Shown here: positions 20,535 to 43,377 of the stretch, one piece after another | How positions within the stretch are numbered: the first letter of the stretch is position 1 | How the letters are laid out: each line of letters opens with the position of its first letter | Assembly: GCF_947497025.1 (NCBI RefSeq) | Contig: NZ_CANMFC010000004.1 | Location: forward strand, 186,001 to 250,000 | Direction: 5' to 3' | DNA: 64,000 bases | Origin: an uncultured Kushneria sp. | GTDB lineage: Bacteria > Pseudomonadota > Gammaproteobacteria > Pseudomonadales > Halomonadaceae | Notes under the pieces: model-generated | The model's input: only the letters and a program-made list of their open reading frames with translations | Database searches by the model: none | What the model was told of the DNA's origin: nothing | Translations under genes and position numbers: made by a program

Positions 20535-20634
20535 TTCTGGCACCCGGCAATCTGGTTTTGGTATCCGCCGGCCTCGATCAGCGGGCGAAAACATCATTTT
20601 TAAATATCCTTTCTCATAACAGCGGAGCTTTTTG

Positions 20635-26867: not shown

Positions 26868-26872
26868 TATGG

Positions 26873-27165: not shown

Positions 27166-27255
27166 GCGGTCGTGTCTCCCCAACCGTCTAGATCGCCGAT
27201 TTGACGTAACGGCACCCAATGTTGTTTGGGTCACCGACATCACCTACATCCGCAC
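27166..27255 (+). pseudogene. IS3-family transposase OrfB remnant
   Basis: About 30 codons read [26 protein letters not shown], the start of the DDE integrase core of an IS3-group OrfB (the Asp of WVTDITYI). It differs from the OrfB of the complete element next to it and is cut by that element's left end, so it belongs to an older, different IS. Confidence 0.8.
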
Positions 27256-27318
27256 TGACCTGCCACGGGATTTTTCCTCCATCGTCAACTAGAGTCCGAC
27301 CTAACCAGAGGACGGACC

Positions 27319-27585
27319 ATGAAACGCGCGAGATTCACCGAAGAACAGATTATCGTCATCCTGGCCGAGCACGAGGCAGGGGCGAAGTGTGCTGACCTGT
27401 GCCGCAAGCACGGCATGTCTGAGGGCACCTTCTACAACTGGAAAGCCGGGTTCGGTGGCATGACCGTATCGGAAGCCAAACGGCTGAAAACGCTCGAAGA
27501 CGAGAATGCCAGGCTGAAGAAACTACTCGCCGAGCAGATGCTCGACCTGGCGGCGATGAAGGAGCTGGTCTCAAAAAAGTGGTGA
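27319..27585 (+). CDS. IS3-family transposase OrfA
   Basis: The 88-residue protein has a helix-turn-helix ([36 protein letters not shown]) and a C-terminal leucine-zipper-like helix ([20 protein letters not shown]), as in IS407-group OrfA. It binds the IS ends. Its last codons contain the heptamer AAAAAAG at 27573-27579, a classic -1 slippery site that would let ribosomes shift into orfB to make the OrfAB transposase. Confidence 0.92.
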
Positions 27586-28448
27586 CGCCCGCCCAGAAGC
27601 GTGACGCCGTCTCGCATTTGAAGCGATCGCTCAGGTTTTCCGAGCGTCGGGCCTGTCGGCTGGTCGGAGCGGATCGCAAGATGGTCCGCTACCGATCTCG
27701 GCGAGCTCCGGATACGTCGCTACGCGATCGGTTGCGAGAGCTGGCCAACGAGCGTCGCCGGTTCGGCTATCGGCGCCTCTTCGTCCTGCTGCGTCGCGAG
27801 GGTGAGCTCTCCGGCATCAATCGTATCTATCGGCTCTATCGCGAAGAAGGGTTAACGGTGCGCAAGCGAAAAGCTCGGCGCAAGGCGATCGGTACCCGAG
27901 CGCCCATTCTGGTCGAAGCGCGCGCCAATGCGAGATGGTCACTGGACTTTGTTCATGATCAGCTGGTGTACGGACACCGCTTCCGGGTTCTCAACATCGT
28001 CGATGACGTGACACGGGAATGCCTTGCCGCGATCCCCGACACCTCGATATCCGGGCGACGCGTGGCGCGGGAACTGACGGCATTGATCGAGCGGAGAGGC
28101 AAGCCCGGCATGATCGTCTCAGACAACGGCACGGAACTGACATCGAATGCGATCCTGCACTGGTGTGCCGAGCACCTGATCACGTGGCACTACATCGCAC
28201 CGGGCAAGCCCATGCAGAATGGCTTCGTGGAGAGCTTCAATGGCAGGATGCGGGATGAGCTTCTCAATGAGACCGTGTTCCATAACCTGGCCCACGCGCG
28301 AGCCGTCATCACGGCTTGGGCGAATGACTACAACACCGAGCGTCCGCACTCGGCACTGGGCTACGAAACGCCAGCCGCTTATGCGCGGGCACTCACAGGC
28401 GTGCCCATTGGCACGAAAACTGATCGGACTCCAATAGCCGTTGGATGA
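27579..28448 (+). CDS. IS3-family transposase OrfB (DDE)
   Basis: The 289-residue catalytic part of the transposase overlaps orfA. It has an HTH_21-like N-terminal segment ([15 protein letters not shown]) and the DDE core: Asp in [10 protein letters not shown], Asp in [12 protein letters not shown], Glu in [14 protein letters not shown]. It is mainly produced as an OrfA-OrfB fusion by -1 frameshifting; the GTG at 27579 is only the formal start. The frame is intact, so the IS may be active. Confidence 0.92.
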
Positions 28449-28466
28449 AAGTTCGGTGGCAGGTCA

Positions 28467-28602
28467 CCGAAACCTGAACGTCGGAAACGCCTTTCAAGCG
28501 TTCCACCGCACCACGGATCTTACCGGCACAGCTTGGACAGTCCATGCCTTGAACGGTCCACTGGTATGTGTTACCGGATGCTTCGGTATGTGTAGCTGGC
28601 AT
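28467..28602 (-). pseudogene. 5' stub of a heavy-metal P-type ATPase gene
   Basis: About 45 codons from the ATG at 28602 encode MPATHTEASGNTYQWTVQ, the metal-binding motif GMDCPSCAGKI and the start of an HMA ferredoxin-like domain, as in ZntA/CadA-type Zn/Cd/Pb exporters. The IS3 element's right end cuts it at 28466, and no other part of the ATPase is in the window. A MerR-type promoter lies directly upstream. Confidence 0.8.
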
Positions 28603-28634
28603 GAAAAGTTACCTAGTTCAATTTCTCTGCTCAA

Positions 28635-28665
28635 ACTCTAAACCTTCTAGTGGCTATAGAGTCAA
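28635..28665 (-). promoter_or_regulatory. MerR-family (CadR/ZntR/PbrR-type) promoter-operator
   Basis: On the minus strand TTGACT (28665-28660) and TAGAGT (28640-28635) are 19 bp apart. The long spacer holds the dyad CTATAGCCACTAGAAGG, the layout of metal-responsive MerR-family promoters. It points at the truncated HMA-ATPase gene and overlaps the last codons of egtD. Confidence 0.75.
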
Positions 28666-29659
28666 ACCGCATCGTCTTACTGGTAAGGAGGCATGCGAGG
28701 CCAGATAGTGCACGCTAAACAAGCCTTGAGTATCAGTCCAGCAGGAAATCGCTTCAAATCCTGCACGATCTGCCAGTGCCTGAAAGCCCTCGACCGTATA
28801 TTTGTAGGAATTTTCTGTATGGATGGTCTCGCCTTTCAGAAAGCGGAAACGCTTTCCTTCAATAGTGACAACTTGAGGCAACCGGCTGACCAGGTGCATC
28901 TCGATGCGGGATTGCGCCTCGTTGAAGAAAGCCCGGTGGGCGAAATGCCCGGGATCGATTGCGATGGTTAGCTCCTCGCGCAGCCGATCCAGCAAGTTCA
29001 GGTTGAACGCTGCCGTCACACCCGCCGCATCGTTGTAGGCAGCTTCGAGTGTCGCCTTGTCCTTGAGCAGGTCGACACCTATCAACAACCCGTTGCCTAT
29101 GGGCAGCAAGAAGCGCAAGCCGCGCAGGAAATCTTCGGCGGCTTGGGAATTGCCGATGCTCGATCCCGGAAAGAAGCCGACCGGCTGTTCGTAGTCCAGC
29201 CCCTCCGGCAGGACCATGTTGCAAGAGAAGTCGGCACAGGCGGCGTGCACCTCGAGCCATGGATAGTCTGCAGCCAGACGGCGCGTGCTTTCGAGCGGGA
29301 AATCACGGGGGGATATCGATACCCAGATAGCTCATCGGCCGCACCGCCTCGAGCAACAGGCGAACCTTGCGGCTCGCCCCGCTACCCAGTTCGATCAGCG
29401 TGGCATCCCGCCCCACCACATTGGCGATGTCATCGGCGGCATCGCGCAGGATCGCTTCTTCCGTGCGTGTAGGATAATACTCAGGTTGTACGCAGATCTG
29501 ATCGAACAGCTCCGAACCACGCCGATCGTATAAAAACTTGGGCGATGCCGTCTTGGGGGTCGACCTCAGGCTTTGAAGCAACTCGTCGCGTAGCGACATG
29601 GAGGCAACCGGAGGTTGCTGATCGTGGAAGCGCACGGCCGTTGCCGTGTTCGTCATCAT
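28654..29659 (-). pseudogene. egtD: egtD (histidine N-alpha-methyltransferase), full length but with a +1 frameshift
   Basis: EgtD trimethylates histidine to hercynine, the first step of ergothioneine synthesis. The gene starts at ATG 29659 (GGGAGG upstream), 2 bp after the egtB stop. The N-terminal half has FLYDRRGSELFDQIC, EYYPTRTEEAIL and the SAM loop IELGSGASRKVRLLL. It then reads into a stop in MSYLGIDIPP because the G run at 29307-29312 has six bases where five would keep the frame. With one base removed the protein continues DFPLESTRRLAADYPWLEVHA, FFPGSSIGN, AYNDAAGVTAAFNLNLL and TENSYKYTVEGF to 28654, about 334 residues. The C-terminal tail (SHASLPVRRCGLTL) differs from the other copy (HYLERA) and runs into a MerR operator. 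It may be a real mutation or a sequencing error. Confidence 0.85.
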
Positions 29660-29661
29660 GG

Positions 29662-30969
29662 TCACGCCTCCCGTGCCAGGCGAAATCCCGAGAATGCCCA
29701 GCGGGCATGCGGCGGGAAGAAATTGCGATAGGTCGCTCGGATATGGTCTTGCGGCGTTGCGCAACAGCCGCCGCGCAGCACCATCTGTCCCGACATGAAC
29801 TTGCCGTTGTACTCGCCCAAGCTCCCTGGCAGTTTTTTGAACCCGGGATAGGGCCGATAGGCGCTGCCGGTCCACTCCCAGACGTCACCGAACATCTGCC
29901 TTGGTACATCGACGGACGCAGCCGATGCAGCCGCGACCGGCTGCAGGTGGTCCTGCTCGATGAAATTACCCTGCATGGGTACGTCACGAGCTACCGTTTC
30001 CCACTCGGCTTCGGTAGGCAGGCGCGCCCCGGCCCACTGGGCATAGGCATCGGCTTCATAGAAGCTGACATGGCATACCGGCGCACTGCTGTCGACCGGC
30101 ACCAGACCGCCCAGGGTATAGTGGTGCCAGACACCGTCCCGCTCGATCCAGTAAAGCGGTGCTTTCCAGCCCTCGGCCTTGACCGTGGCCCAGCCATCCG
30201 ACAACCAGTAGTCGGGCTTGTCGTATCCCCCCGCCTGCATGAACGCGAGAAACTCGCCGTTGGTCACCGGGCGGTCGGCGATCTGGAAAGCCTCGACGAA
30301 CTGGCGGTGGCGCCCCATCTCGTTGTCATAGGCAAAGCCCTCCTTGGTTTCGTCGTGGCCGATGTACCGAACGCCGGCCGGATAGACATGCCAGCCGAGC
30401 GCAGCGACGTCATGCGCGGGCGTCAGCGCCAGGTCGTTCCGGTAGGCCGGGCACAACGGGTTCTGAGCCAGGATGTGCTTGATATCCATTAGCAGCAGCT
30501 CCTGATGCTGCTGTTCGTGCGGCAGGCCCAGCTCGAGACGTCGGAGAATCTCCTGGAGATGTTCCTGCGGTGGATCGCTGAGCAGCGCTTCCATGGCCCG
30601 GTCGACGTGAGCGCGATAGCGATAGACATCGTCCACGGTCGGCCGCGAGATCATGCCGCGTTCGGGCCGGGGGAACGGCGTGCCGTGGGTCACGTAATAG
30701 GAGTTGAAGAGGTGATCGTACGCGGGGTCGAGGGTCTGGTAGGCGGGCAGGAACGGTTTCAGGATGAAGGCTTCGAAAAACCAGCTGACATGGGCGATGT
30801 GCCATTTCGGCGGGCTGACATCCGGCATGCTCTGCACCATGTAGTCTTCCTTGTGCAGAGGCGCACAGATGGCCTCGGTGGCGGCACGAATCCGCTGGTA
30901 CGCGCGCAGCCACTCCTTGGCGTGCAGGTTGTCTGGCGTTTCGATGGCCAAACCTTGAGCAGGTGACAT
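29662..30969 (-). CDS. egtB: ergothioneine biosynthesis sulfoxide synthase EgtB
   Basis: EgtB is an iron enzyme that joins hercynine and a thiol donor using oxygen. The protein (435 residues from the ATG at 30969 behind AAAGGAG; the frame to 30993 is less likely) has an N-terminal DinB-like domain with the iron ligands: His in KWHIAHVSWFFE and the HxxxH of LPHEQQHQELL. A C-terminal formylglycine-generating-enzyme (FGE-sulfatase) domain has [20 protein letters not shown] and the closing [20 protein letters not shown]. It lies 63 bp after the complex-I-like nuoN on the same strand and 2 bp before egtD, so it may belong to the same transcript. egtA, egtC and egtE are not in the window. Confidence 0.93.
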   Translation of the reverse strand: MSPAQGLAIETPDNLHAKEWLRAYQRIRAATEAICAPLHKEDYMVQSMPDVSPPKWHIAHVSWFFEAFILKPFLPAYQTLDPAYDHLFNSYYVTHGTPFPRPERGMISRPTVDDVYRYRAHVDRAMEALLSDPPQEHLQEILRRLELGLPHEQQHQELLLMDIKHILAQNPLCPAYRNDLALTPAHDVAALGWHVYPAGVRYIGHDETKEGFAYDNEMGRHRQFVEAFQIADRPVTNGEFLAFMQAGGYDKPDYWLSDGWATVKAEGWKAPLYWIERDGVWHHYTLGGLVPVDSSAPVCHVSFYEADAYAQWAGARLPTEAEWETVARDVPMQGNFIEQDHLQPVAAASAASVDVPRQMFGDVWEWTGSAYRPYPGFKKLPGSLGEYNGKFMSGQMVLRGGCCATPQDHIRATYRNFFPPHARWAFSGFRLAREA

Positions 30970-31032
30970 AAATGACTCCTTTCTCAGTATCACTCCATTG
31001 ACGTGGATCCGGCAGGCCAGGCCCGCCGGGGC

Positions 31033-32442
31033 CTACAGGGCAAAGCGTATCGATTCTGTAAACAGCGAGAGCGCTTCCGCGCCGAGTCCTCCGACGATCA
31101 GCAGCACGCCCGCCACGGCCATCGTGGCACGCGCCCACTGGCCCGACAGCACATGCACGGCGGACCGATGATTGCCGAACATCATCGGCGCGACGATGCG
31201 CAGGTAATAGAACAGCGAGACGACGGTGTTGATTGCCGCCACGAGCGCCAGCCAGGCGTAACCGCCGTCGAGGGTGACGCGAAACAGCATCAGCTTGCCG
31301 AAGAAGCCGACCAGCGGCGGGATCCCCACCAGGGACAACAGCGACACGATCAGTATCGTGGCCGCGATCGGTGCGTGTCGGGCCAGCCCCCGGTAATCGT
31401 CCAGTGCGGTACGTCCCCGCAGGTGCGTGACCACGGCGAAGGCAGCCAGGTTGGCCGTGGCATAGCTCGCCAGGAAGAACACCAGTGCCGGCAGGGCCTG
31501 ATCGCTGACACCCAGCACCACGATGGCCATCAGGGCATAGCCGGACTGGGAAACCGATGACCAGCCCAGCAGGCGGCGCACGTCCGTCTGTCGCAACGCC
31601 GCCACGTTACCCAGCGTCATGGTAGCGACGGAGATCAATGCCACGATCGCCCGCGAGGCGACGTCCGGCGGCAGCAGGGAGACGAAACGGGCCAGCGCCA
31701 CTGCGGCACCGACCTTGGGAATGACAGTCAAGAAGGCCGCCGCCGGTACTGGCGAGCCCTGCGCCACGTCCGGCATCCAGGCGTGAGCCGGAAACGCCGC
31801 CAGCTTGAAGGTCAGGCCCAGCACAACGCAGGCCGTGGCAATGGTAAGCGCCAGGCGGTCGCTGTCCGTGGCAAGCGTTTGGGCGATGTCCGGATACCCG
31901 GTACTGCCGGTCAGGCCGAACAGCACCACCACCCCGATCGTCAGCAACGTATTGGTCAAGGCGCCGATCAGGAAATACTTCATCCCGGCTTCCAGCGCGG
32001 GCGCCCAGCCACGGTGATAGGCGGCCAGCGGGTAACTCGCCACCGATGACAGCAGCACGCCCAACACCAGTTCCATGGTATCGCTGGCCGATGCCATCAT
32101 GATGACGCCCAGCAGGGCGAACAGCACCAGCGCGTAGTACTCGCCATGGCGGCGATCGGTCCGCATCCATTCAGGCGACATCGCGACAACCAGCGCACCG
32201 GCGACCAGCACCACCAGCTTGCTGGCGAGCGCCACGCCATCCAGGGCCCAGACACCGGAAAACGTCAGCCGCGGCGCCCCGCCCCATTGCGCGACGGTCA
32301 ACCCCGCGCCGAGGCCGATGGCGAGCAGGGCCAGCACGGCTGCCCAGTGATGCTGCCGCTGACGGACGAAGCTGGCGAACAGGACGATCGCCACGGCACC
32401 CAGCGTCAGGCTGATTTCCGGCAGTACGTCACCGATAGGCAT
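31033..32442 (-). CDS. nuoN: complex I-like antiporter subunit NuoN homologue
   Basis: A 469-residue protein with about 14 membrane helices and the proton_antipo_M domain. It starts at ATG 32442, overlapping the nuoM stop (TGATG); the longer upstream frame is a shadow of nuoM. Conserved features are LLSSVASYPLAAY with the helix that normally carries Glu/Asp and Lys, AFPAHAWMPDVAQGSPVPAAAFL and LLGWSSVSQSGYALMAI. It is the last of eight overlapping genes. In complex I, NuoN pumps protons when driven by the quinone site. Here no electron-input subunits are present, so its driving force is unclear. Confidence 0.9.
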   Translation of the reverse strand: MPIGDVLPEISLTLGAVAIVLFASFVRQRQHHWAAVLALLAIGLGAGLTVAQWGGAPRLTFSGVWALDGVALASKLVVLVAGALVVAMSPEWMRTDRRHGEYYALVLFALLGVIMMASASDTMELVLGVLLSSVASYPLAAYHRGWAPALEAGMKYFLIGALTNTLLTIGVVVLFGLTGSTGYPDIAQTLATDSDRLALTIATACVVLGLTFKLAAFPAHAWMPDVAQGSPVPAAAFLTVIPKVGAAVALARFVSLLPPDVASRAIVALISVATMTLGNVAALRQTDVRRLLGWSSVSQSGYALMAIVVLGVSDQALPALVFFLASYATANLAAFAVVTHLRGRTALDDYRGLARHAPIAATILIVSLLSLVGIPPLVGFFGKLMLFRVTLDGGYAWLALVAAINTVVSLFYYLRIVAPMMFGNHRSAVHVLSGQWARATMAVAGVLLIVGGLGAEALSLFTESIRFAL

Positions 32443-33929
32443 CAGCGACCTCCCACCAGCAGCGTCGCCGATGCCTCGACCAGGGTCAGCAGAAACGCCG
32501 GCGCCACGCCGATGATCACGAAGCCTGCCGACAGCACCGCGAGCACGCCCCACTCGATGGGACGCAGATCCTCGAACTGCGCCCAGCGCTCCGGCATCGC
32601 CCCGAAGAACACCTTCTGCAGCATCTGCAGAAACAGCGCCGCCGTCACCAGGATGCCCAGCACACCGATGACGGCGAGCCATGGATAGACACCGAAGGTG
32701 CCGGCAAAGATATGGAACTCCGCCACGAAACCGGCCAAGCCGGGCAGGCCCAGGCTGGCAAAGGAGGCGAGCACGGCGAAGGCGGTCAGCCACGGGGCCT
32801 GACGAAGCAGACCACCGTAGCTGTCCAGGTCATACTCCTCGGTACGCTGCCAGAACGAGCCACAGATCAGGAACAGCGCCCCGGTAATCAGGCCGTGCGC
32901 CACCATTTCCATCGTGGCCCCCACCAGGGCCAGCTCGCGGGCATATCCGGTGTCCTGGATCAGGGCACCGGCGGCGGCGATACCCAGCACCGTGTAGCCC
33001 ATGTGATTGATCGACGTGTAGGCGATACGTCGTTTCAGGTTGCTCTGACCAAGCGCCACGAAAGCCCCGTAGAGAATCGACGCGACCGCGAACAGCGCAA
33101 TGACCAGGGCATAGCGTGAGAACGTCTCCGCCATCATGGCGAACGGAATGCGGATGATTCCGTAAGTACCCATCTTGAGCAGCACCCCGGCGAGAATCGC
33201 CGAGACCGGCCCCGGGGCATCGACATGCGCCTGGGGCAGCCAGGTATGCACGGGCACCACCGGTGTCTTGATGGCGAAGCCGAGCATGAGGGCGAGGAAC
33301 ACCAGGCCGGCCGTCATGCCCGCGCCCGCCAGCGGTTGCTGCTCGATGAGCACGCGCATGTCGAAGGTATGCGGTTCGACCGACAGATAGAGTCCGATGA
33401 TCGCTAACAGCAGCAACAGCGAGCCGCAGAAGGTGTATAGAAAAAACTTGAACGCGGCGAACTGCGCCTGGCCATGCCCCCAACGGCCGATCAGGAAGAA
33501 CATCCCCACGAGGCTCAGGTCGAAAAAGACATAGAAGAGCAGCAGGTCCAGCGCCAGAAAGACACCCAGTGACACGGACTGCAGAAAGAGCATCCAGGCG
33601 TAGTACTGGCGAGGCTGATGCTTCGTGTCCACGGGGTAGGCGATGCTGGCCGAGAAGACTAGCGCACTCATCGTCGCGACAGCCAGCGCAATGCCATCCA
33701 CGCCCAACCTGTAGCTCATGCCCAGGCTGGGTACCCAGGGCACCTCCTCGACGAACTGGAATAGCGCACCTTGCGGATCGAACTGTCGCCACGCCCAGGC
33801 CAGCAACAACACCGGCAACACCGAGACCGCGATGGCAAACCGGCGAGCCGTGGCCTCGGTCCAAAGGCTTGAAACGGCGAGTGCGAGAGCCCCCAGCATG
33901 GGAAGCCCCAAGGCTGCAGTCAAAATCAA
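32442..33929 (-). CDS. nuoM: complex I-like antiporter subunit NuoM homologue
   Basis: The 495-residue protein has about 14 membrane helices and NuoM motifs: FYVFFDLSLVGMFFLIGRWG, KTPVVPVHTWLPQAHVDAPGPVSAILAGVLLK, AYTSINHMGYTVLG and MVAHGLITGALFLICG. The start is the TTG at 33929, overlapping the nuoL stop by 3 bp, with AGGAG upstream; no ATG lies before residue 12. The usual essential Glu of TM5 is not obvious, since the helix reads FFDLSLVGMF rather than FWELML. An altered charge set would fit a transporter that has drifted from complex I. Confidence 0.9.
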   Translation of the reverse strand: MILTAALGLPMLGALALAVSSLWTEATARRFAIAVSVLPVLLLAWAWRQFDPQGALFQFVEEVPWVPSLGMSYRLGVDGIALAVATMSALVFSASIAYPVDTKHQPRQYYAWMLFLQSVSLGVFLALDLLLFYVFFDLSLVGMFFLIGRWGHGQAQFAAFKFFLYTFCGSLLLLLAIIGLYLSVEPHTFDMRVLIEQQPLAGAGMTAGLVFLALMLGFAIKTPVVPVHTWLPQAHVDAPGPVSAILAGVLLKMGTYGIIRIPFAMMAETFSRYALVIALFAVASILYGAFVALGQSNLKRRIAYTSINHMGYTVLGIAAAGALIQDTGYARELALVGATMEMVAHGLITGALFLICGSFWQRTEEYDLDSYGGLLRQAPWLTAFAVLASFASLGLPGLAGFVAEFHIFAGTFGVYPWLAVIGVLGILVTAALFLQMLQKVFFGAMPERWAQFEDLRPIEWGVLAVLSAGFVIIGVAPAFLLTLVEASATLLVGGR

Positions 33930-35821
33930 AGGAGCGCTCCTATGCTCAGGATGATCAGGATCGCGGCGAGTCCTGCCGCGATACCGGTGTAGTAGTGATG
34001 CATCTGCCCAGTGTGCACCCGACGTGCCACTTGCCCCGCCCAATCGACACCCTTCGCGAGCTGGTTCGTGGCCCCATCGAACGCGCCTTCGCCACGCCGC
34101 TCTCCCAGCCTGGCCAACCACGCACCGAAGCGGGCACTGCCCCGGATCCCGGCATCCACGGCGCGATCGTCGAAGCGTGCCAGGCCATGGCTGAAAATCA
34201 GCACGGCATTCGCACCACATGCTGCCAGCCTCGGCAGGCCCAGCCAGTCCGCCACGCCGGTTCGCGTGGCGCCAGGTCGGCGCGCCCCCGTCACTTCACG
34301 ACGCACCGCCCAGACGCCCAGGCCCATGCCCAGCGCCACCAGCAGTAGCGACAGGATGAGTTCCCACGGCCTGGTCCCGGGAAAGTGCACGGACAGCCAA
34401 TCGGCGAGACCATTTCCGACACCGGGCCACCAGAGTAGCGACAGTGCCAATGTGCCTGCCGCCAGCAGGTAGAGCGCGGCGGCTTCCGCCCGGGAGTGGC
34501 CGGGCCGGGAGACAGCCTCGCTCATGCGGTCATGCCGCCCCCGCCCGAACGCCAGCAGCTGAAAGCGCGTGGCGTACAGCGCACTGAGCCCTGCCGCCAC
34601 GGCGACGATCACGGCCAGCCAGGGCGCCTGATGGCCGGCGGCCGTGACGATCTTCTCCTTGCTCCACGCCGCACTCAGCGGAACGACGCCCGCCAGCGCC
34701 AGGCTGGCCACCATGCTGGCTGCCGCGACGCCAGGAAGCAGGCGACCCAGGCGCATCGCCGTCAGCGAATAGCTGTCGACATGGCGTTCGGCGATGCCGG
34801 CGGCCAGGAACAGCGCCGCTTTGGTGAATGCATGCGTGACGAAGTGCACCAGGGCGACGCCGGGAAAGCCCGCCCCTGCCGCCAGCCACATCAGGCCATA
34901 CTGGGCCGATGTCGAGGCGGCCAGCAGCTTCTTGGCATGGCCCTGAAGACAGGCCACGAGCCCCCCTGACAGGGCAGTGGTCAACCCCAGCGTGATGGCG
35001 ACCGGCGCAAACCAGGCGACGGCGGAGAGTTCCGCATGCAGCCGGACCACCAGATAGATCCCCGCCGCGACCATGGTCGCCGCATGGAGCAATGCCGACA
35101 CCGGTGTCGGCCCGGACATGGCGGCAAACAGCCAGGGAGAGAACGGCACCTGGGCGGATTTCGCGGCGGCGGCCAGCACGACGCCGGCAACGAACACGTC
35201 CAGCCGCCACCCATCGAGTTGGGCCAGGTCTGCAAAGGCAAACGAGCCCGTGCCGGCGAACGCTGCCGCCGCGGCGATGTACAGCCCCAGATCCCCGAAG
35301 CGAGTGACCAGGAACGCCCAGGCGGCATCCCGCAGGTTGCCGGCCTTCTGCCATTCATGGGCGATCAGCGCCCACGAGCATGCCCCGACCAGTTCCCAGG
35401 CGATCAGCAGGGTGACGAAATCCTCGGCCAGGACGAGCAGTTCCATCGCGCCGACGAACGCCGTCAGCAGCACCATCAGTCCGACGGGTGGGCGCGCCGT
35501 TCCCCCGCCACTGACCGGCGATGCTTCATGGTAGGCGCTGTAGACGATGATCGGCGCGGCGATCAGTGGCACGACGATGGCGAACACGGCGCTCGCGGAC
35601 GTCATCCCGAGCGACAGAACGACTCGGGAACTCCAGCGATAGGTGCCGCTCCAGTCCACCGTGACCGCGACACTCACGAGCAGCAAGGTAGCGACCGTGA
35701 TCGCCACCCCCGCCAGGGTCAGCATGGCACGGCCCCTGTCGTCGCCCGGCCAACGCTTGCCGACCCCATGGATGACGAGGGCCGCCAGCAGCGGCACGAG
35801 AGGAACGGACCACAGCATCAA
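33926..35821 (-). CDS. nuoL: complex I-like antiporter subunit NuoL homologue
   Basis: The 631-residue protein has an N-terminal NADHQ_Ox5-like segment, the antiporter core (LLIAWELVGACSWALIAHEW with the TM5 Glu, FSPWLFAAMSGPTPVSALLHAATMVAAG, LLAASTSAQYGLMWLAAG), and a long C-terminal extension with a predicted lateral amphipathic helix followed by a final membrane helix, as in true NuoL. This extension separates it from single-domain MrpD-type antiporters. It starts at ATG 35821, overlapping nuoK. NuoL in complex I is the distal proton channel. Confidence 0.92.
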   Translation of the reverse strand: MMLWSVPLVPLLAALVIHGVGKRWPGDDRGRAMLTLAGVAITVATLLLVSVAVTVDWSGTYRWSSRVVLSLGMTSASAVFAIVVPLIAAPIIVYSAYHEASPVSGGGTARPPVGLMVLLTAFVGAMELLVLAEDFVTLLIAWELVGACSWALIAHEWQKAGNLRDAAWAFLVTRFGDLGLYIAAAAAFAGTGSFAFADLAQLDGWRLDVFVAGVVLAAAAKSAQVPFSPWLFAAMSGPTPVSALLHAATMVAAGIYLVVRLHAELSAVAWFAPVAITLGLTTALSGGLVACLQGHAKKLLAASTSAQYGLMWLAAGAGFPGVALVHFVTHAFTKAALFLAAGIAERHVDSYSLTAMRLGRLLPGVAAASMVASLALAGVVPLSAAWSKEKIVTAAGHQAPWLAVIVAVAAGLSALYATRFQLLAFGRGRHDRMSEAVSRPGHSRAEAAALYLLAAGTLALSLLWWPGVGNGLADWLSVHFPGTRPWELILSLLLVALGMGLGVWAVRREVTGARRPGATRTGVADWLGLPRLAACGANAVLIFSHGLARFDDRAVDAGIRGSARFGAWLARLGERRGEGAFDGATNQLAKGVDWAGQVARRVHTGQMHHYYTGIAAGLAAILIILSIGALL

Positions 35822-36123
35822 TGTTTCAGCCCGGTCAGCGATTCGGTCATGTCGGCCTGTTTACCGCGAAAGACCGCGACCACCAGGGCGAACCCCATCG
35901 CCATCTCGATGGCCATCACGGCCATGACGATGATCGTCAGCAGTTGGCCTTCCGGTGCTCCGGCCCCGCTGAAGGCCCAGAAAGCCACCGCCGCCAGCAT
36001 GACACCGTTGAGGATCAGCTCCAGTCCCATCATCAACATCACGAACGACTGCTGGGAAAGCGCGCCATAGATCCCGATACCGATCAGTGCCGCTGCCAAT
36101 AGCAAAAGTGTGGCGAGTGTCAT
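35818..36123 (-). CDS. nuoK: complex I-like subunit NuoK homologue
   Basis: A 101-residue protein with three membrane helices. It keeps the two membrane Glu positions of NuoK: MLMMGLELILNGVML and MAVMAIEMAMGFALVVAVF. Length equals that of E. coli NuoK (100). It overlaps nuoL by 4 bp. NuoK/MrpC-type subunits form part of the proton path at the base of the membrane arm. Confidence 0.93.
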   Translation of the reverse strand: MTLATLLLLAAALIGIGIYGALSQQSFVMLMMGLELILNGVMLAAVAFWAFSGAGAPEGQLLTIIVMAVMAIEMAMGFALVVAVFRGKQADMTESLTGLKH

Positions 36124-36150
36124 GCAAGCCTCCCTGCCTGTCTGTCCCGC

Positions 36151-36786
36151 TCAGTGATGATGGTGATGATGGTGATGCTCGCCCTCGCCCGCTTCGTCCT
36201 CCTCGGGCTTGCCTGCCGGGTCGCCGCCCGGTTCCAGCCCCGGCGGCATCGAGCCCTCCGCCGCTGCGCCATAGCGCCCGCGATGGCTCGACAGCACCAC
36301 CACGCCGATCATGGTGGTCAGCAGCACGAGACCCGCCGATTCGAAAATCAGCATCGAATCACCGAGCATTTCGTTGCCTAGTGATCTGACGGGTTCGAGG
36401 TCTGCCGGCACCGGCTGATCGGGAAATACCGCCAACAGGGCCATGGCGCCCAGTATCAGAAAACCGGCGATGCCGGCCCCGATGGCGATACGTTCCTGGT
36501 GGACCATGTTCATGGGATTCAGGCCGGCCGGGTTCATCATGAACATGACCATGAACAGCGCCATGACCGTCATTTCCACGGCCATCATGAAGAACATGGC
36601 AACACCCAGGTATTCCGCCGCCAACAGGATCATGATCACGCCCACGGCGATGAACGACACCAGCAGAAAGAAGGAGGCCCGTACCATCGAGTCGGTGCGA
36701 AACACGCGCCACCCGGTAACCACCGCCAGCGTGGCCAGCAGCAGAAACGCGATATCGACACCGATGCCGTCATTCATGCTCTCCAT
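36151..36786 (-). CDS. nuoJ: complex I-like subunit NuoJ homologue with polyhistidine tail
   Basis: The 211-residue protein starts at ATG 36786 (overlapping the nuoH stop) and has five membrane helices with the NuoJ region LAAEYLGVAMFFMMAVEMTVMALFMVM; complex I NuoJ has EYVGAVMVLFLFVVMM here. The C-terminus is a Gly/Glu/Pro-rich linker ending in eight consecutive His residues, a natural poly-His tail that could bind metal ions. It is followed by 27 bp and then nuoK. Confidence 0.9.
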   Translation of the reverse strand: MESMNDGIGVDIAFLLLATLAVVTGWRVFRTDSMVRASFFLLVSFIAVGVIMILLAAEYLGVAMFFMMAVEMTVMALFMVMFMMNPAGLNPMNMVHQERIAIGAGIAGFLILGAMALLAVFPDQPVPADLEPVRSLGNEMLGDSMLIFESAGLVLLTTMIGVVVLSSHRGRYGAAAEGSMPPGLEPGGDPAGKPEEDEAGEGEHHHHHHHH

Positions 36787-37709
36787 CACAACAGCGCTCC
36801 TATCCCGGCCCACACCAGATCGATAAACGACAGCGGCAGCAACACGACCCACATCAAGGTGACGCAGCGCTCCGGCGCCAGTCGCGGCAGTAGCCGCCCG
36901 AGCAACAGCAGCACGCTCAATACCGCCAGCATCTTGAGGGACATCCATAACGGGCCGGGCAGCCAGGGCCCCAGCCCCCCCCCCAGGAAGGCAGTCGCTG
37001 CCACGCCGCTGAACGCAACCAGCATGGCCGCCCGGGCCATGTCCCAGACCAGCCGTGGCGGTCCCGAGATCTCCGAGGCCGTGCCGCCGGCCAGATCCGT
37101 CGAATCGGCCAGGTTCAGCGGCCCCCAGAAGGTCATGCCCAGGCCGACGATGAGAAACAGCGGCAGCCCCAGCGGCTGGCGAATGACGTTCCACAGCCCT
37201 TCCTGCGAAGCCACCACCTGGGTGAACTGCAGCGATTCGGCCGGCAATGCCACGCCGATCAGCACGAACATGCTGATCAGGATGTAGGAGAGCCCCAGCG
37301 CCACGTACCGGTACCCGCCGATCAAGGCCAGTAACGAATTCGCCGACCAGCCATGCAAGAAGATGACGACGGTCGCCAGCGCTTCCACGCTGCCCCACAG
37401 CACCACGCTGGTGACCAGATCCGTGGCGACCAGCGATGCCGACCATGGCACCACCGCCAGCCCGCCCGCCGCCAACGCCAGATACAGGGCTGGTGCCAGC
37501 CGCCAGGCTCGCCAGTCAGGCGCTTCGGTGGCATTGGCGTGCTGGATCAGCAACCAGGCTCCGCGCGCTATCGGCGCCAGCCAGATACCTCCGGCCTGGG
37601 GGGTGCCAAGCGCGCTGGCAACCAGGCGATCGAGCACGGCAACGGCATAACCGCCGACAACCAACATGAAGATCACCATGAGAACCGGCAGAAACAGCTC
37701 GCTAAACAT
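36786..37709 (-). CDS. nuoH: complex I-like subunit NuoH homologue
   Basis: A 307-residue membrane protein with about eight helices. The start is the ATG at 37709, which overlaps the end of the B/D-like gene. The region that in NuoH forms the quinone chamber (AESELVSGF...EYS) reads DLAGGTASEISGPPRLVWDMARAAM here: a Glu and an Asp remain, but most of the acidic cluster is lost. NuoH joins the membrane arm to the quinone-binding subunits; a degenerate chamber agrees with the loss of redox residues in the B/D-like protein. Confidence 0.88.
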   Translation of the reverse strand: MFSELFLPVLMVIFMLVVGGYAVAVLDRLVASALGTPQAGGIWLAPIARGAWLLIQHANATEAPDWRAWRLAPALYLALAAGGLAVVPWSASLVATDLVTSVVLWGSVEALATVVIFLHGWSANSLLALIGGYRYVALGLSYILISMFVLIGVALPAESLQFTQVVASQEGLWNVIRQPLGLPLFLIVGLGMTFWGPLNLADSTDLAGGTASEISGPPRLVWDMARAAMLVAFSGVAATAFLGGGLGPWLPGPLWMSLKMLAVLSVLLLLGRLLPRLAPERCVTLMWVVLLPLSFIDLVWAGIGALL

Positions 37710-39012
37710 CGTTCCCGGTGCCTCCCCGTACCGCCCGGGACTCGCCGGATGGCCGTGTGCCGACAGGTTGATCGGCCACCCCCGCGACATCCAGGCTGGC
37801 GACCGTCGCCAGGGCATCGCCCCACTCCAGCCCGGGTAACAGCTCGTCGAAGAGCGCGCTCGCATCCGCCGGCCGCCGCGCCGACCAGGGGCCACGCGGT
37901 GTCTCGACGCTGCCTGTTCGCTCCGTGTGTACCCTGTCGCGTTCGGCCAGACGGGCCAGATGGAGGGACTGATCGATTTCGTCCAGAAGCTGCCGCCAGC
38001 GAGCATGGGTATCGCCCGCAGTCTGACAGACGGGAGAGAACCCCAATCGTCGATAGCCGGCATCCTCCGAGCGTAGGTCATCAGCCATTCCGGCAGCTCG
38101 AGCGGCGGACCCACCGATCATGCGCGCCTGCTCGGGGCCGAGCACGCCGCCGCCCGCCGTCAGGCGAAAGAAGCCGCTACGTGATAGTGCGCGCCGCAAT
38201 CCATCGAGGGTACTCGACGTCGACAATCCATGCGCCAGACGCAAGGTCCGCAGGCTCACATTCTCCAGACCCGCCAGGTGCAATGCATGGAACAGCCGGT
38301 GAAGGTGATGGCGGGCCCGGGCAAGCTCGACCTCCGCAATGGGGACGGGGCGCTCGCGAGCGTTGAAAAAGATATCGTCGAGAGATTGTGGATATGGCGC
38401 AAATTGCGTTTGCCATGTCTGCACGAGATCCCCCTGCAGGGTGATCTCCGCCGCCATGCCGGGCGGAAACGCGAAAAAGAACGGCCCCAGCCGGAAAGTC
38501 AGTGAATCCAGCGTCAATCCGTCGCGGATGTCATCTGCCATGTTCATGGCCATGGGTCGCCCGTAGGGCACCCCGCCCATCATGCCTTCACCGCCCTGGC
38601 CGAAATCGCCCTCGCCTTCCCAAGGGTTGGGCGGCTCGTCCGGCAGGAGACGATGGGTACTGCCGCGGCAGCCTTCCATCAATTCGAGATGCGCCGTGAC
38701 CAGTGCGCCGGGCAGGTCGTCGAGATCGTCGATACGGGCCACGCGTTCCAGATGAGGCCAGGGTTCGCTGCGAAACCACAGCGTCGTGAAGGGGTATGGC
38801 AATTGGTCATGCACCCGACGCAGGGGCTCGAAGCGGTCGGCCGGAATCTCCCCCGCCACCAGCAACACACTGGCGTGGCGCGGCGAGTCGACCAGTTCGA
38901 TTTGCGGAGAAAGCGCGAGATGCCGCAGCGCGCCATCACCCTGCTTGCCCAGCACGGGAAACACAGGAACGCTGCCACGCGAGGCGAGTTTGTGCAGCCA
39001 GTTCACTGCCAC
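37702..39012 (-). CDS. fused NuoB-like/NuoD-like protein without redox residues
   Basis: The 436-residue protein (GTG start 39012, inside the nuoA end) begins with a NuoB-like part (VNWLHKLASRGSVPVFP, then SPRHASVLLVAGEIPADRFEPLRRVHDQLP, residues 1-80). A Gly/Met-rich stretch follows (residues 125-165), then a NuoD/hydrogenase-large-subunit-like part (LTFRLGPFFFAFPPGMAAEITLQGDLV, helix bundle with RARHHLHRLFHALHLAGLE, C-terminal DVAGVADQP). Only two Cys occur (about 115 and 338) and there is no CC pair, so cluster N2 cannot be bound. The quinone-site GPxHPxxHG of NuoD is replaced by GPFFFAFPPG. It probably keeps a structural or conformational role only. The assignment rests on motif alignment by eye and on gene order. 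Confidence 0.75.
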   Translation of the reverse strand: MAVNWLHKLASRGSVPVFPVLGKQGDGALRHLALSPQIELVDSPRHASVLLVAGEIPADRFEPLRRVHDQLPYPFTTLWFRSEPWPHLERVARIDDLDDLPGALVTAHLELMEGCRGSTHRLLPDEPPNPWEGEGDFGQGGEGMMGGVPYGRPMAMNMADDIRDGLTLDSLTFRLGPFFFAFPPGMAAEITLQGDLVQTWQTQFAPYPQSLDDIFFNARERPVPIAEVELARARHHLHRLFHALHLAGLENVSLRTLRLAHGLSTSSTLDGLRRALSRSGFFRLTAGGGVLGPEQARMIGGSAARAAGMADDLRSEDAGYRRLGFSPVCQTAGDTHARWRQLLDEIDQSLHLARLAERDRVHTERTGSVETPRGPWSARRPADASALFDELLPGLEWGDALATVASLDVAGVADQPVGTRPSGESRAVRGGTGNDV

Positions 39013-39350
39013 TTGAACACCCCCTCACGCCAGGCATAGACGATGCCCACCGACAGGATGGCGAGAAACATGCCCATCTCCATCATGGCCTTCTTGCCCG
39101 TCTCGACGAACACGACCGCCCACGGGTACATGAACATCATCTCCATCTCGAAGGCGATCAACAGCAGCGTCATGGAGTAGTAGCGAACGTGGTAGCGGCT
39201 CCAGGCGTGGCTGTCGGGCGTCCCCCCGCCCAGAAACGGCACGCGCTGGGACCATCTGGGCCGAGGCTGATGACGCATGGGCAGCCACTGCACCAGCAGC
39301 CCGGCGCCCAGTACCACGATCAGAATGATGAGAAGAGCGAACAGCTCCAT
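39003..39350 (-). CDS. nuoA: complex I-like subunit NuoA homologue
   Basis: A protein of 115 residues with three membrane helices and the NuoA motifs YYSMTLLLIAFEMEMMFMYPWAVVF (complex I: F..LFVIFDVEALFLYPW). Start at ATG 39350 behind AGGGA gives normal length. An ATG at 39488 behind AAGGAG in the same frame would add 46 residues with no family match; which is used is open. It is the first gene of the eight-gene operon, and the promoter should lie between 39351 and 39560. Confidence 0.88.
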   Translation of the reverse strand: MELFALLIILIVVLGAGLLVQWLPMRHQPRPRWSQRVPFLGGGTPDSHAWSRYHVRYYSMTLLLIAFEMEMMFMYPWAVVFVETGKKAMMEMGMFLAILSVGIVYAWREGVFKWQ

Positions 39351-39880: not shown

Positions 39881-42107
39881 TCACGCGACCAGCTGACGAG
39901 CCAGCTCCACTTCGACCGACTCGCCGTCGCTGTTGAGCGCATCGAGCCCGGACTCGGGGATATCCCCGGATGTGCTTTGCGCCACGGCGATCTTGGCTGC
40001 CATCAGCCGCAGACAGGCGATCTGTGACGTTTCGGCGTAGCCGAAGAACACCACACGCACCGCCCGGTGCTGACCAATACGCCAGGATCTTCGCGCCGCC
40101 TGCTGGAGCGTGTAGACGTTCCAACCGGTCTGCATGAACGCGATCGTCGGGAAGTCGAGAAGATCCAGCCCGGTTTTGACCAGCTCCGGATTGGTGATCA
40201 GGACATCGATCCCCTTCTCGACCTGATCCGCGATCCAGTCTTCCCGCCGACTGGTGTCGACACTCGAGCGCAACACGGCCACTTTGAGGCCCTCTTGCTC
40301 GAGCACGCGCTTCAGGCGACCCGTGGTATCGCGCTTGCCGGTGTAGGTGGAGTAGACCAGCACCTTGCGGCCCTGGGCCTTCTCCGATCGGCATAGCTCG
40401 ACCAGCTCGTCCTCCTTCGGCATCGTCGACGCTTCGTCGAAAATCGACTTGGCGAAGCTGATCAGTGCCCGCGAACGCGGGTGCTTGACCGCTTCCGGTC
40501 GAAAACAGCAGTCAGGCCACGCCAGCAGCACATTGAGCACCACACCCAGCAAGGTGGTGTCCTTGTGTGCCAGCGCTTCCCGCAACGCCTGTGTCAGCTC
40601 TCCAGAGAGCTTGTCATAGGCACTGGCCTGAGCAGACGACATCGGCACTTCCACGAACTCCTCGTCATACGGCGGCAGTACATCGCCGCCGATGTCCTTG
40701 AGCTTGAGGAAGACCGTGAAGGGCAACACGTAGCGCAGGATGCCCTTGGGGCCGAAACCCGGTGCCTTAACCGTGCGCACCGAGGTTTTCCGCCCCTTCG
40801 CCGTCTTGTGTCCAGCGCCCTCGCGTTCCGAGTAGATATCCTTGAGGATACCGTGCTCGCGCATGAAGGCCATGGACGCCGCACCCAGTGAATTGCGCTG
40901 GGGACGATAGCCGTCTTCGATCATCACCGGTGTCAGGATCCGGAAGAGCAGATAGAACAGGTCGTCGGCGTAGCCGCCCATCAGCGTGCCAGTCAACAAA
41001 AGCGTCTTGCGTGCCTTCGCTGCCAGTACACCCATGGCCTGACCCTGGGCCGACCCCGCGTTCTTGTACTCATGCCCTTCGTCGACGATCAGCAGGTCGA
41101 AGAATTGGTCGGGGAGATAGCGCTTTATGAACTCGCTCGGCTGGAACCCCCCCTTCACCGAAGCCGAATTCGATGTTGGCCATCGCCCGTTCCATTCTCG
41201 TTGCCTGTCGATCGTTGAACACCAGGTCGCCGTTCTCGTCCATCAGGTTGATGAAATCGTGCGCGTTGTCGGCGAGCATCGACGACAGAAAAGCCTCGCC
41301 GAATCGGTCGATCAGCTTGTCGGCAGTCACCTTGCCGATGGTTGGAATGCGCTGCAGCGCCTTGAGCACCGAACGACGGCGGGCATCCCCTTCGGGCTGC
41401 CGCTGTCGTATGAGTGTCCAGAGCTGACCACCGCATCCCGCGCACGCCTGCTGACGCTCGGTCTGCTGGAACGACTCGAACCGGACCGGCTCATTGTCGT
41501 TATCGAGGATCATGCGGCCGCAGTCCGGACACGCCGCGAGGCGGCCGGACAGGGTGCGCCTGGGAGTGGCCACCGGTACCCAGTGAAACCCCATCCGCAT
41601 CCGTACACGACCCAGCACGAAGAACTCCGGCCGGCCATCATCTGGCTGCCCCAACTGCTCGCGCAGCTTGAGTAATTTCGCCAGCGTATCCGGTCCGTTG
41701 AGTACCCAGACCCGAGCTTGGGGCACCGTCTCAAGGATCTCGCGCCGCCACTTGTAGACCAGGTGTGGCGGAGACACGATCAACGATCGACGATAGCCCT
41801 CGGTCGCCATCACGGCTGCGACGGCAATCGCCATCATCGTTTTGCCGGTTCCCATCTCGGCGTTGATCACGCCGGCACGCTCGTTCTGATCCAGTAGCAG
41901 CGCGCAGATCGCGTGAACGACATCTGCCTGTGCCGGGAACGGTTGGCGTGCCAGAGCGTTCATTACCGCCTGTCGCGCCGGATTCCCGCGACCGTCATAG
42001 ACCGGGGGATGGGTGTGGTTGAGCGTATCCAGAAGCCCGTCGCCGAACTCATCGATAAAATCGTTGAGCGCGATGACGTTATCCGGTGCTATGCAGAGCA
42101 TGTTCAT
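39881..42107 (-). pseudogene. SNF2/DEAD-like ICE helicase with a +1 frameshift
   Basis: Two overlapping frames together make a superfamily 2 helicase of about 740 residues. The N-terminal part (ATG 42107, GGAGA upstream) has Walker A INAEMGTGKTMMA, SLIVSPPHLVYKW and two CxxC zinc pairs (CPDCG, CAGCGG). The second part has the DEGHEYKN box, TGTLMGGYADDLFYLLF and the helicase C domain (VYSTYTGKRDTTGRLKRVL, VLITNPELVKTGLDLLDF, RSWRIGQHRAVRV). The C run at 41147-41153 has seven bases; six would join GEGG to FQPSEFIKRYLP in one frame. Such helicases are conserved in PFGI-1-class ICEs. It is either a real frameshift or a homopolymer sequencing error. Confidence 0.88.
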
Positions 42108-42126
42108 GTCCGTCTCCAATGAAAAC

Positions 42127-42168
42127 GGGCAGAACACGCCCCTACGGACGAAGTTCTGCCCGTAGGGG
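42127..42168 (-). repeat. two interleaved inverted repeats in helicase leader
   Basis: GGGCAGAAC (42127-42135) pairs with GTTCTGCCC (42153-42161), and CCCCTACG (42139-42146) pairs with CGTAGGGG (42161-42168). The arms alternate (a b a' b'), so the RNA can form either hairpin or a pseudoknot, 20 bp before the helicase start. Confidence 0.8.
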
Positions 42169-42198
42169 TTGGCACGCTCCATGAGCGCGCTTGGTGGT

Positions 42199-43377
42199 CT
42201 ATGCCGTCTCGGCGTCCGAATCAGCAGGTTCAGATGGTGCCGGCGCATCCAGTGCCGGCGTCGAGGTGATCTTGAACAGTCGCCCCTTGTCGGGTGAGCC
42301 CGGGGTCACGTCCCAGGCCATGATGGCCGGCACGAAACGATCGGTCAGGATTCGACGCTCGCTGATGTTGCCATCGGCGTCTTCGTCGAACTCGACCTTC
42401 GAGGACTTCTCCTTGAAGGTATCGCCCTTCACGACCAGTTGACGCCCTGACCGCGAGGTCACGATGCCCGATATGCCCCCTGCTGCCAGCGACAGCGCGA
42501 GGTGCCAGCTGGAAAGCCGGCGCAGCGGACGTCGCTGCGTGCCCCCATCGGTCCAGAACGCGAGGTTGAAGTCGGGCCATAGCCCGCCCAGCTGATCTAT
42601 TTCCTGCCCCAGCTGCTCGGGTTCCAGCGACATGCGGTAACAGTGAGGTGTGTTACCGATCGCCGGCGGCACGTCATACAGACCATCACACCAGATCTCG
42701 GGCAACGGCTCGGGTTTGAACTCTTCCAACCCGATTTGCTGCAACATCTGTCTGATCGTTTTGGCCCTGTCGTTGGCCAGTAGTGCATTGCGCTTCGTGC
42801 GAACGCCGAAGACGACGACCTGCTTGAAGGTATCGACCGCGGCCTCGAACACAGTGACGTGATCGAAGTGTTGGCTGACCCAGCTAGACAGCTCATCGTC
42901 GAAGACGTAGTGCGGCACGATCATCACCAGGATCCCGCCGTACTGCAGCAGGTGAACACAGCGCTGGTAGAACAGCTTTTCCAAACGCTGCCGGCCTTTG
43001 CCCGCGTATCCCTTGCTCCCGCCGGTCTCGCTGACGAGATCGCCGTAGGGTGGATTGAAGAACATCATGCCAAACGAGCGCGGCGATATGACGGTATCCA
43101 TCAGATCCGACTGGATGCCGACATCGACCAAGCCCTGCATGTGACGCGCTCGCTCGAGATCGAACTCGATGCCATAGGCGTCAGTTCGATCCCGGCCCAG
43201 CCGGTGGGCGCTTTCAAGGATCGCATGGCCTTCGCCGGCACACGGGTCCAGAATGCGCACCCGCTGGTCGTGCGAGGTGCCCAATGCCTGAAGAGCACGT
43301 TCGATCGTGTCCTCGTCGGTCGGGTAGTAGCCGTTCTTTGCGAAGTTGCGCGCCAGGCGTGGAAACATCAAAGCCAT
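42199..43377 (-). CDS. ICE-encoded SAM-dependent DNA methyltransferase-like protein
   Basis: The 392-residue protein has the SAM-binding motif ILDPCAGEGHAILE (residues 42-55) and the amino-methyltransferase motif FFNPPYGDL (NPPY 108-111), followed by a YGGILVMIVP strand and a unique C-terminal half. It resembles the DUF6094-type methylase-like proteins conserved in ICEs next to the SNF2-like helicase. It may protect or modify the element's DNA during transfer; the target sequence is unknown. It lies between the helicase gene (92-bp spacer with inverted repeats) and another ICE gene (15 bp). Confidence 0.85.
   Translation of the reverse strand: MALMFPRLARNFAKNGYYPTDEDTIERALQALGTSHDQRVRILDPCAGEGHAILESAHRLGRDRTDAYGIEFDLERARHMQGLVDVGIQSDLMDTVISPRSFGMMFFNPPYGDLVSETGGSKGYAGKGRQRLEKLFYQRCVHLLQYGGILVMIVPHYVFDDELSSWVSQHFDHVTVFEAAVDTFKQVVVFGVRTKRNALLANDRAKTIRQMLQQIGLEEFKPEPLPEIWCDGLYDVPPAIGNTPHCYRMSLEPEQLGQEIDQLGGLWPDFNLAFWTDGGTQRRPLRRLSSWHLALSLAAGGISGIVTSRSGRQLVVKGDTFKEKSSKVEFDEDADGNISERRILTDRFVPAIMAWDVTPGSPDKGRLFKITSTPALDAPAPSEPADSDAETA

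Follow-up and report, generated by a model that had tools for sequence, protein, structure and literature searches.

A copper-linked, complex I-derived operon that has lost its redox ligands, and its predicted role as a Cu(I)/H+ antiporter

The window analysed here, 64,000 nucleotides from an uncultured Kushneria sp. (contig NZ_CANMFC010000004.1, positions 186,001 to 250,000), carries between its positions 31033 and 39350 an operon of eight genes, all on the minus strand, whose products are homologues of the A, B/D, H, J, K, L, M and N subunits of complex I (NDH-1). This operon is one member of a real, widespread and misannotated complex I-derived system. Since the parts needed for electron transfer are lost, invariant methionines and metal-binding-type segments are gained, and copper-resistance genes often lie adjacent, the encoded complex probably moves copper by proton flow and does not respire. 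Its sequence features make it very probable that the complex handles Cu(I) or Ag(I). It is further proposed that it acts as a multi-subunit Cu(I) (or Ag(I))/H+ antiporter that exports the metal, driven by the proton motive force and built from complex I, a reading that we favour although we regard the case for it as evenly balanced. In its fullest form, which is slightly more tentative, the proposal would make the system the first metal transporter in the complex I superfamily: a Cu(I)/Ag(I) exporter powered by the proton motive force, in which the quinone cavity and the E-channel have been rebuilt as a Met-lined path, the redox subunits have been replaced by interchangeable capture modules (GMMGG motif, HMBD arrays or Met/His runs), and integrative and conjugative elements (ICEs) and plasmids have spread the whole through two phyla. 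A preliminary description of the window had seen a compact ion-translocating machine in these genes; the complex is indeed redox-free, complex I-like and probably ion-translocating, but copper as its recurrent partner and the methionine-rich and metal-type segments had been missed.

Genes and the loss of the redox parts

The operon begins with a nuoA-like gene (39003-39350, 115 aa; Pfam PF00507, E 4e-23), followed by the gene for a fused B/D-like subunit, hereafter BD (37702-39012, 436 aa; PF00346, the 49-kDa family, 6e-7 over residues 285-355), and by nuoH-like (36786-37709, 307 aa; PF00146, 3e-37), nuoJ-like (36151-36777, 208 aa; PF00499, 2e-19), nuoK-like (35818-36123, 101 aa; PF00420, 1e-15), nuoL-like (33926-35818, 630 aa; PF00361, 3e-42), nuoM-like (32442-33929, with a TTG start inside the end of L; PF00361, 3e-64; TIGR01972 above its cut-off) and nuoN-like genes (31033-32442, 469 aa; PF00361, 5e-58). 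Open reading frames (ORFs) and Pfam matches agree with the genes, strand and coordinates first described. Adjacent genes share 1 to 10 bases, apart from H and J, which are 8 bases apart, and J and K, which are 27 bases apart. Only one K model and one M model reach their cut-off among the NCBIfam matches listed, indicating a divergent set. The order A-BD-H-J-K-L-M-N is kept in all 74 genome loci that hold the eight genes (window included; seven further loci are without some of them), in Proteobacteria and Actinomycetota alike, and a gene order so fixed is more than chance.

The fusion in BD, also part of the preliminary description, is borne out by a profile search against solved structures (best 60 of 87 matches), in which the B half (residues 36-77) matches MbhJ at E 3e-6 and NuoB homologues less well (2e-4 and up), and the D half (about residues 265-390) matches NuoD homologues (1e-4 and up). 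An AlphaFold2 (AF2) model of BD made with 61 homologues has a mean predicted local distance difference test score (pLDDT) of 87.9 and a predicted template modelling score of 0.86, and a Foldseek search with it retrieves the 49-kDa chains of complex I (best 8e9h_D, E 4e-6). As had been stated, the window's BD has two Cys in 436 residues, no CC pair, and the sequence GPFFFAFPPG at the quinone loop. Across 79 aligned BD proteins the claimed loss of the ligands of cluster N2 and of the quinone site holds as well: Cys reaches at most 21 of the 79 in any one alignment column and eight proteins contain no Cys at all, and the loop GPxHPxxHG has lost its first His in 77 (mostly to L or F; two keep it) and its second in all 79 (P in 78). 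Apart from the two retained first His, the family has neither the N2 ligands in NuoB nor the quinone-site His in NuoD that mark complex I.

The accompanying redox subunits are equally hard to find. Homologues of E. coli NuoC, D, E, F and I were detected at E <= 1e-3 in none of 99 loci (the window together with 80 loci from genomes and 18 from plasmids, of which some are short; NuoB was not among the queries), and NuoG gave two matches of about 20% identity, one of them annotated as a formate dehydrogenase. NuoI was detected in 28/28 canonical loci, which served as positive control. The absence of NuoC, E, F, G and I noted earlier thus stands for C, E, F and I, while for G it is qualified by these two weak matches. 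Redox subunits beside homologous operons, or intact ligands in relatives, had been named as contrary evidence; a search for both left the description of a complex without redox parts in place. Canonical nuoJ lies beside nuoI in all 28 of the searched genomes that carry the copper-linked system, and the genome from which the window comes encodes canonical nuoH-I-J-K together on a different contig; the operon is therefore an addition to complex I, not a substitute for it. Judged by its residues, the BD-containing complex no longer does redox chemistry.

The proton-channel machinery of K, L, M and N, in contrast to the redox parts, appears largely kept. At the key positions, which we take to be those of the E. 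coli literature, L has eight of ten invariant in 74/74 sequences (among them E142, K220, H245, K333 and K387), with E at the D400 position in 73/74 and H at the H334 position in 71/74. Seven of the eight positions checked in M are invariant, namely K222, K253, E405, H229, H310 and H346 in 71/71, together with D in place of E144; D138 is likewise found in 71/71. N keeps K243, K383, E101 and H220 in 72/72 and K213 in 70/72; K keeps E35 in 77/77, and its position 73 is occupied by E in 69 sequences and by D in the other 8. The residues expected of complex I are hence present in L, M, N and K apart from this D in some K proteins and from the positions of M E108, N E133 and N H305, which are taken up below.

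Loss of redox subunits would also be expected of a decaying complex I remnant without function, and a few copies are in fact disrupted (L065, and those on Martelella plasmids, where a transposase gene follows the B part). Since the residues above are invariant and the gene order is conserved across phyla, this explanation is already contradicted, and we consider it extremely improbable.

Methionines and metal-binding-type segments

What has been gained is most apparent in the small membrane subunits. The Met content is 9.4% in A, 8.9% in J and 9.5% in K, compared with 2.2-3.1% in BD, H, L, M and N. In J, nine positions (M31, 64, 65, 69, 72, 76, 80, 81 and 89) are Met in 86/86 family sequences (77 close family members, window included, four actinobacterial and five HMBD-type proteins) versus 0/29 canonical NuoJ (28 from genomes carrying both systems, and E. 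coli). All nine recur in each of the 12 J loci retrieved, out of 18 places (window included) that a J profile matched in gammaproteobacteria. Seven of the nine, M64, 65, 69, 72, 76, 80 and 81, form the Met-rich transmembrane helix 3 (TM3) of J (36535-36588, minus strand), where canonical proteins have V, Y, V, L, V, L and V/I/L; they fall within or at the end of helix 55-80, whose limits come from a low-confidence AF2 model (pLDDT 66) that served for this purpose only. The position of E. coli Tyr59 is Met in 77/77 J sequences, and J often carries a His-rich C-terminal tail (His8 at 36154-36177 in the window). Positions J M78, J M156 and K M32 are Met in most canonical proteins too and were left out of the count; J M91 is Met in 13/29 canonical NuoJ and J M142 in 1/29. 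K contributes M29 and M70 (85/85 family versus 0/28 canonical sequences), with M31, M67 and M74 being Met in most family sequences. In A, whose TM2 reads FEMEMMFMYPW, Met 60, 69, 71, 74, 92 and 94 are invariant in 75 sequences and Met 72 is present in 74/75. The Met-bearing J and K are the subunits that couple the quinone site of complex I to its pumps.

The second gain lies in BD, between the B and D parts. This linker (residues 127-169; 38506-38634, minus strand; PPNPWEGEGDFGQGGEGMMGGVPYGRPMAMNMADDIRDGLTLD) is hyper-conserved and a putative Cu(I)/Ag(I) site. Three kinds of predicted metal-binding-type segment occupy the same place in the family: the GMMGG/PYGRPMAM-type (GMMGG/PMAM) motif, as in the window; two to five Pfam HMBD domains with His/Met runs, in Rubrobacter marinus, two Sulfitobacter, Thioclava and Nitratireductor (HMBD was confirmed in 5/5 scanned BD proteins so annotated); and Met/His-rich runs, found in Arthrobacter, Rhodococcus and Curtobacterium, making three of the four actinobacterial BD proteins examined. 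Among the relatives read, those without an insert are the fourth actinobacterial protein, short as annotated, and the broken L065. Since the genome scan was seeded with GMMGG[VT]PY and DxPPNPW[EK]G, part of the GMMGG conservation across the 80 genome loci comes from the search itself; a whole-protein BD search, used below, is independent of both seeds.

We propose that the BD linker captures cytosolic Cu(I) and would hand it into the former quinone cavity, from where the methionines of A, J and K would carry it across the membrane. Protons flowing inward by way of K, L, M and N would supply the energy, and the Met route would resemble the Met ladder of the proton-driven CusA, on an unrelated scaffold.

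The same segments can be read in other ways. Metal bound at BD and J could switch the proton path, so that the complex would be a copper-gated or copper-supported energy device (a valve, or a means of adjusting pH or proton motive force in copper stress) with no metal crossing the membrane. In its favour, the key proton residues are retained, and the metal-type segments sit next to the region that in complex I is powered by quinone chemistry; however, nine invariant Met in J, with seven inside one TM helix or at its end, and those of K and A in addition, seem excessive for a gate, and copper exporters adjoin the operon. We consider this device unlikely. Alternatively, the complex could be a copper-redox ion pump, in which Cu(I)/Cu(II) cycles at the metal sites, periplasmic multicopper oxidases (MCOs) or cytochromes accept the electrons and protons are pumped outward. 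Methionine favours holding Cu(I) over its redox cycling, BD is without conserved Cys and without a quinone site, and C, D, E, F and I subunits are missing from the 99 loci searched, all of which speak against such a pump. The copper linkage and the metal-type sites would nevertheless fit it equally well; several neighbourhoods hold genes for cytochrome c and MCOs, and candidate His residues are conserved in BD (H68, 78/79), A (H48 and H54, both 75/75) and J (H93, 77/77). Copper-driven pumping is also what the authors of a study on Marinobacter suggest for their NuoADHJKL cluster, in the passage that treats it (PMC8233155). This pump, too, appears to us an unlikely explanation, about on a par with the gated device.

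Copper genes, hosts and carriers

In the window, copper genes occupy 18.0-24.0 kb, at 7-13 kb from the operon, all on the plus strand: a CopR/CopS-type two-component system (18023-19982; PF00072 with PF00486, and PF02518), 65% and 49% identical to the pair beside an MCO gene and copB in another locus (L041), a DUF411 protein and a Met/His-rich cupredoxin (20079-21138; PF04214, 7e-23, and PF00127, 7e-11), and a copper-resistance-type MCO with CopB (21193-23971; PF07732/PF07731/PF00394, and PF05275, 4e-71). A genome scan found 96 relatives, of which 80 were kept, with alpha-, beta- and gammaproteobacteria and actinobacterial metagenome-assembled genomes among them. In 38/80 loci the BD gene has one or more copper markers within about 10 kb, versus 0/39 controls (Fisher 8e-9), and among loci of at least 20 kb the count is 30/54 versus 0/39 (Fisher 7e-10), the controls being 39 stretches of 20 kb from carrier genomes (20 Halomonadaceae, 19 others); both P values are optimistic because the genomes are related and not independent. 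By group, linkage is seen in 19/37 Halomonadaceae/Pseudomonas-type, 8/8 Salinisphaera-type and 11/35 other loci.

A gene for a Csp3-type protein (cytosolic copper storage; E 5e-30 to solved CSP3) is present in 8/80 loci. Three of these are otherwise marker-free, bringing the copper-linked loci to 41/80, and the Csp3-type gene supports the weak marker matches of L046 and L063. The Csp3-type gene lies 5' of nuoA on the same strand, at 78 bp (L062), 91 bp (L054) and 296 bp (L039). It has the same placement in L046, L047 and L056, in two frames in L047. The whole-protein BD search over Halomonadaceae gave 45/275 genomes, of which the 42 strong ones (E below 1e-90) were kept and the weak G045, G080 and G105 (E 1e-7 to 1e-4) left out; CopB, selected as a protein family, is encoded within 15 kb on the same contig in at least 16 of these 42, where a rough estimate gives about 0.4 expected, and is present in 35/42 compared with 96/233 of the other genomes. 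Among plasmid regions, 15/18 list copper or heavy-metal genes, a count taken from incomplete gene tables and made without a control set; in Pseudonocardia these are confined to a heavy-metal ATPase, one HMA protein and regulators. Genes of this class end shortly before nuoA on the same strand in Curtobacterium (heavy-metal P-type ATPase, 81 bp), Rubrobacter tropicus (copper-binding protein, 73 bp) and Arthrobacter sp. FB24 (MCO, 87 bp). Linkage of the operon with copper genes thus exceeds chance.

Besides the relatedness of the genomes, a number of points weigh against copper export as the function. No copper marker lies within about 10 kb in 42/80 loci (39 after the Csp3 search), six of the 38 marker loci (L046, L061, L063, L081, L107 and L108) depend on weak markers, several marker matches are weak (DUF411, CsoR and a four-helix protein, at 61-96 bits), and the marker proteins were drawn from this neighbourhood itself. 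Three of the 18 plasmid regions (Thioclava, Paracoccus, Rhodococcus) list no copper gene. Of 20 proteins near mostly marker-free loci, those with a Pfam match are mostly of housekeeping or general transport type, so that copper linkage is common and not obligatory; an RND pump is encoded near L083 and cytochrome oxidase genes near L060. CueR-like operators 5' of nuoA are not clearly enriched (7/81 versus 16/243 in the background), and CopR-like ones, at 25/81 versus 11/243 with intergenic base composition uncontrolled, are not convincing and were not used. In the proton channels, T mostly takes the place of M E108, N has L for E133 and Q for H305 in 72/72, and the position of E. coli H E157 is M, I or L in 75/77 (I or M in 71/77). 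The linker motif falls in a low-confidence part of the single-chain AF2 model. Family-specific Met were established for J and K, where canonical sets were compared, and those of A are invariant within the family. A single Met stripe on J TM3 was considered and rejected, five of the seven lying within 80 degrees and the full seven not being significant (random 0.16).

Direction is a further question, and the complex might instead import Cu(I) or load cuproenzymes, by inward transport or by membrane delivery to an MCO or cytochrome oxidase. MCO, cytochrome c and DsbD/DsbA-type genes near some loci would fit this role, but the neighbours belong mostly to detoxification (CopB, a CusA-type pump, P-type ATPase, CueR, Csp3), which makes it very unlikely in our view. 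The distribution of the system bears on another alternative, namely that it is an antiporter exchanging Na+ or K+ for H+ under salt or pH stress, or an energy-coupled anion or dissolved inorganic carbon device like DabAB, its copper linkage reflecting hitch-hiking on resistance islands. L, M and N do belong to the Mrp/complex I antiporter family and many hosts are marine or halophilic, and the preliminary description had assigned the machine to a halophile. That assignment was not supported by the plasmid searches, which added named Actinomycetota: homologues lie on plasmids of Arthrobacter, Pseudonocardia, Rhodococcus and Curtobacterium, and for two of these soil is given as the source of the isolate. 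With soil actinobacteria carrying homologues, salt as the principal function was rejected. Such an antiporter would also leave the invariant family-specific Met, the HMBD domains and the Met/His segments unexplained, and the copper linkage recurs in two phyla and on plasmids of many genera. We hold this alternative to be quite improbable.

Among 369 gammaproteobacterial species genomes, a J profile finds the family type in 17 (the window's included); a BD profile gave 211 matches, many of them short or weak and to NuoB- or NuoD-like stretches, and these are left out of the counts. An ICE of the PFGI-1 class carries the window copy as cargo, as the preliminary description had it in calling the carrier an ICE: the window encodes a MobH/TraI relaxase of that class (TIGR03760, 4e-72), a conjugation ATPase (TIGR03744, E 0), TraC, TraU and TraG. 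On this element the operon is adjoined by two neighbouring ORFs with SNF2-related and helicase C-terminal domains (39881-42248), after which comes a DUF6094 methyltransferase (42199-43377). Two divergent operon copies lie about 40 kb apart on contig 19 of Salinicola peritrichatus (L039/L046), and another genome (G445) has two copies on different contigs. On two Martelella plasmids (L137, L140) the annotated operon stops after nuoA and the B part, an ISL3 transposase gene follows, and the truncated operon adjoins a cluster of CueR, P-type ATPase and MCO genes. On Sulfitobacter and Paracoccus plasmids (L133, L141, L142), genes for a sigma-70 family protein, a DUF6629 protein and an extra 'proton-conducting transporter' precede HMBD-type operons, which with this upstream sigma-70 family gene are possibly a separate regulon.

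Directly 3' of nuoN lies egtB, for ergothioneine biosynthesis (29662-30993, minus strand; TIGR03440, 582 bits, cut-off 360). It takes the same place in 16 other gammaproteobacterial loci and is so annotated in Halomonas sp. KO116; because ergothioneine binds copper, egtB may be part of the same stress response as the operon. The window's egtD looks broken, with its start (29303-29875) and its end (28654-29250) in two frames, both matching TIGR03438. A second copy of the egtB-end/egtD-start stretch is found at about 26.5-27.1 kb (89% over 596 bases), and an IS3-type transposase pair (27319-28448) sits between the two egtB/egtD copies (region 26457-29875).

Relation to known systems

The operon resembles complex I in its A, B/D, H, J, K, L, M and N homologues, in their similar order and in most proton-channel residues of K, L, M and N. 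It differs in having no C, E, F or I and a weak G-like match in only 2/99 loci, in missing the N2 and quinone ligands, in the fusion of B and D around a metal-binding-type linker, and in its Met-rich A, J and K. In energy-converting-hydrogenase-related (Ehr) complexes, a homologue of the catalytic subunit has lost its metal ligands while the membrane arm is kept, and the driving reaction is unknown. The operon likewise shows ligand loss in its BD and a retained membrane arm, but its subunit set is of the complex I type, with complex I-type A, L, M and N, a fused BD, new metal-type segments and a copper linkage. The Mrp (CPA3) Na+/H+ antiporters are likewise redox-free and built of complex I-type antiporter subunits, whereas the operon has A, BD, H, J and full-length L, M and N and departs from the MrpA-G composition, which is without B, D and H; no gene named MrpE, F or G appears in the 18 annotated plasmid regions, whose gene tables are incomplete. 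CusA and the other heavy-metal-efflux RND exporters differ from complex I-type proteins in fold and subunit make-up, yet with the proposed Met route and proton drive they are the nearest functional analogue. For CusA, a Met ladder for Cu(I) and proton antiport are described in a passage of a review (PMC7558416).

The closest precedent is in Marinobacter atlanticus, where a NuoADHJKL cluster lies inside a copper-resistance cluster and is co-expressed with it; nuoM and nuoN are said to be missing and NuoL to be short in the passage concerned (PMC8233155). By that description it resembles the present operon as a set of complex I-like genes in a copper operon, and differs in the missing nuoM and nuoN and the short NuoL. 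Among the matches listed from open-licence full-text literature, subscription papers being outside its scope, there was no other mention of the system, and neither a family description nor an anatomy of the metal site. The retrieved portions of a complex I survey (PMC12361115) contain no occurrence of copper, those of a paper on Alteromonas copper genes (PMC8478169) none of NADH or nuo, and those of PMC6305408 no mention of the system. The earlier surmise that the machine was perhaps not yet described therefore agrees with the lack of a family description in this literature, but has to allow for the similar Marinobacter cluster. New here, as far as this literature goes, are the family as such, its copper link, and the Met and metal-type segments, a similar single cluster being known from Marinobacter in the text seen of that report.

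If the proposed export of Cu(I) or Ag(I) is true, the long-range coupling of complex I, from a cytosolic site to distant proton channels, would run here without electrons and with a metal ion in their place, and the family would provide a natural test case for how the quinone site is coupled to proton pumping in complex I. Copper export would gain a kind of system beside P-type ATPases and RND pumps, and the 'NADH-quinone oxidoreductase' annotations on resistance plasmids would need correcting.

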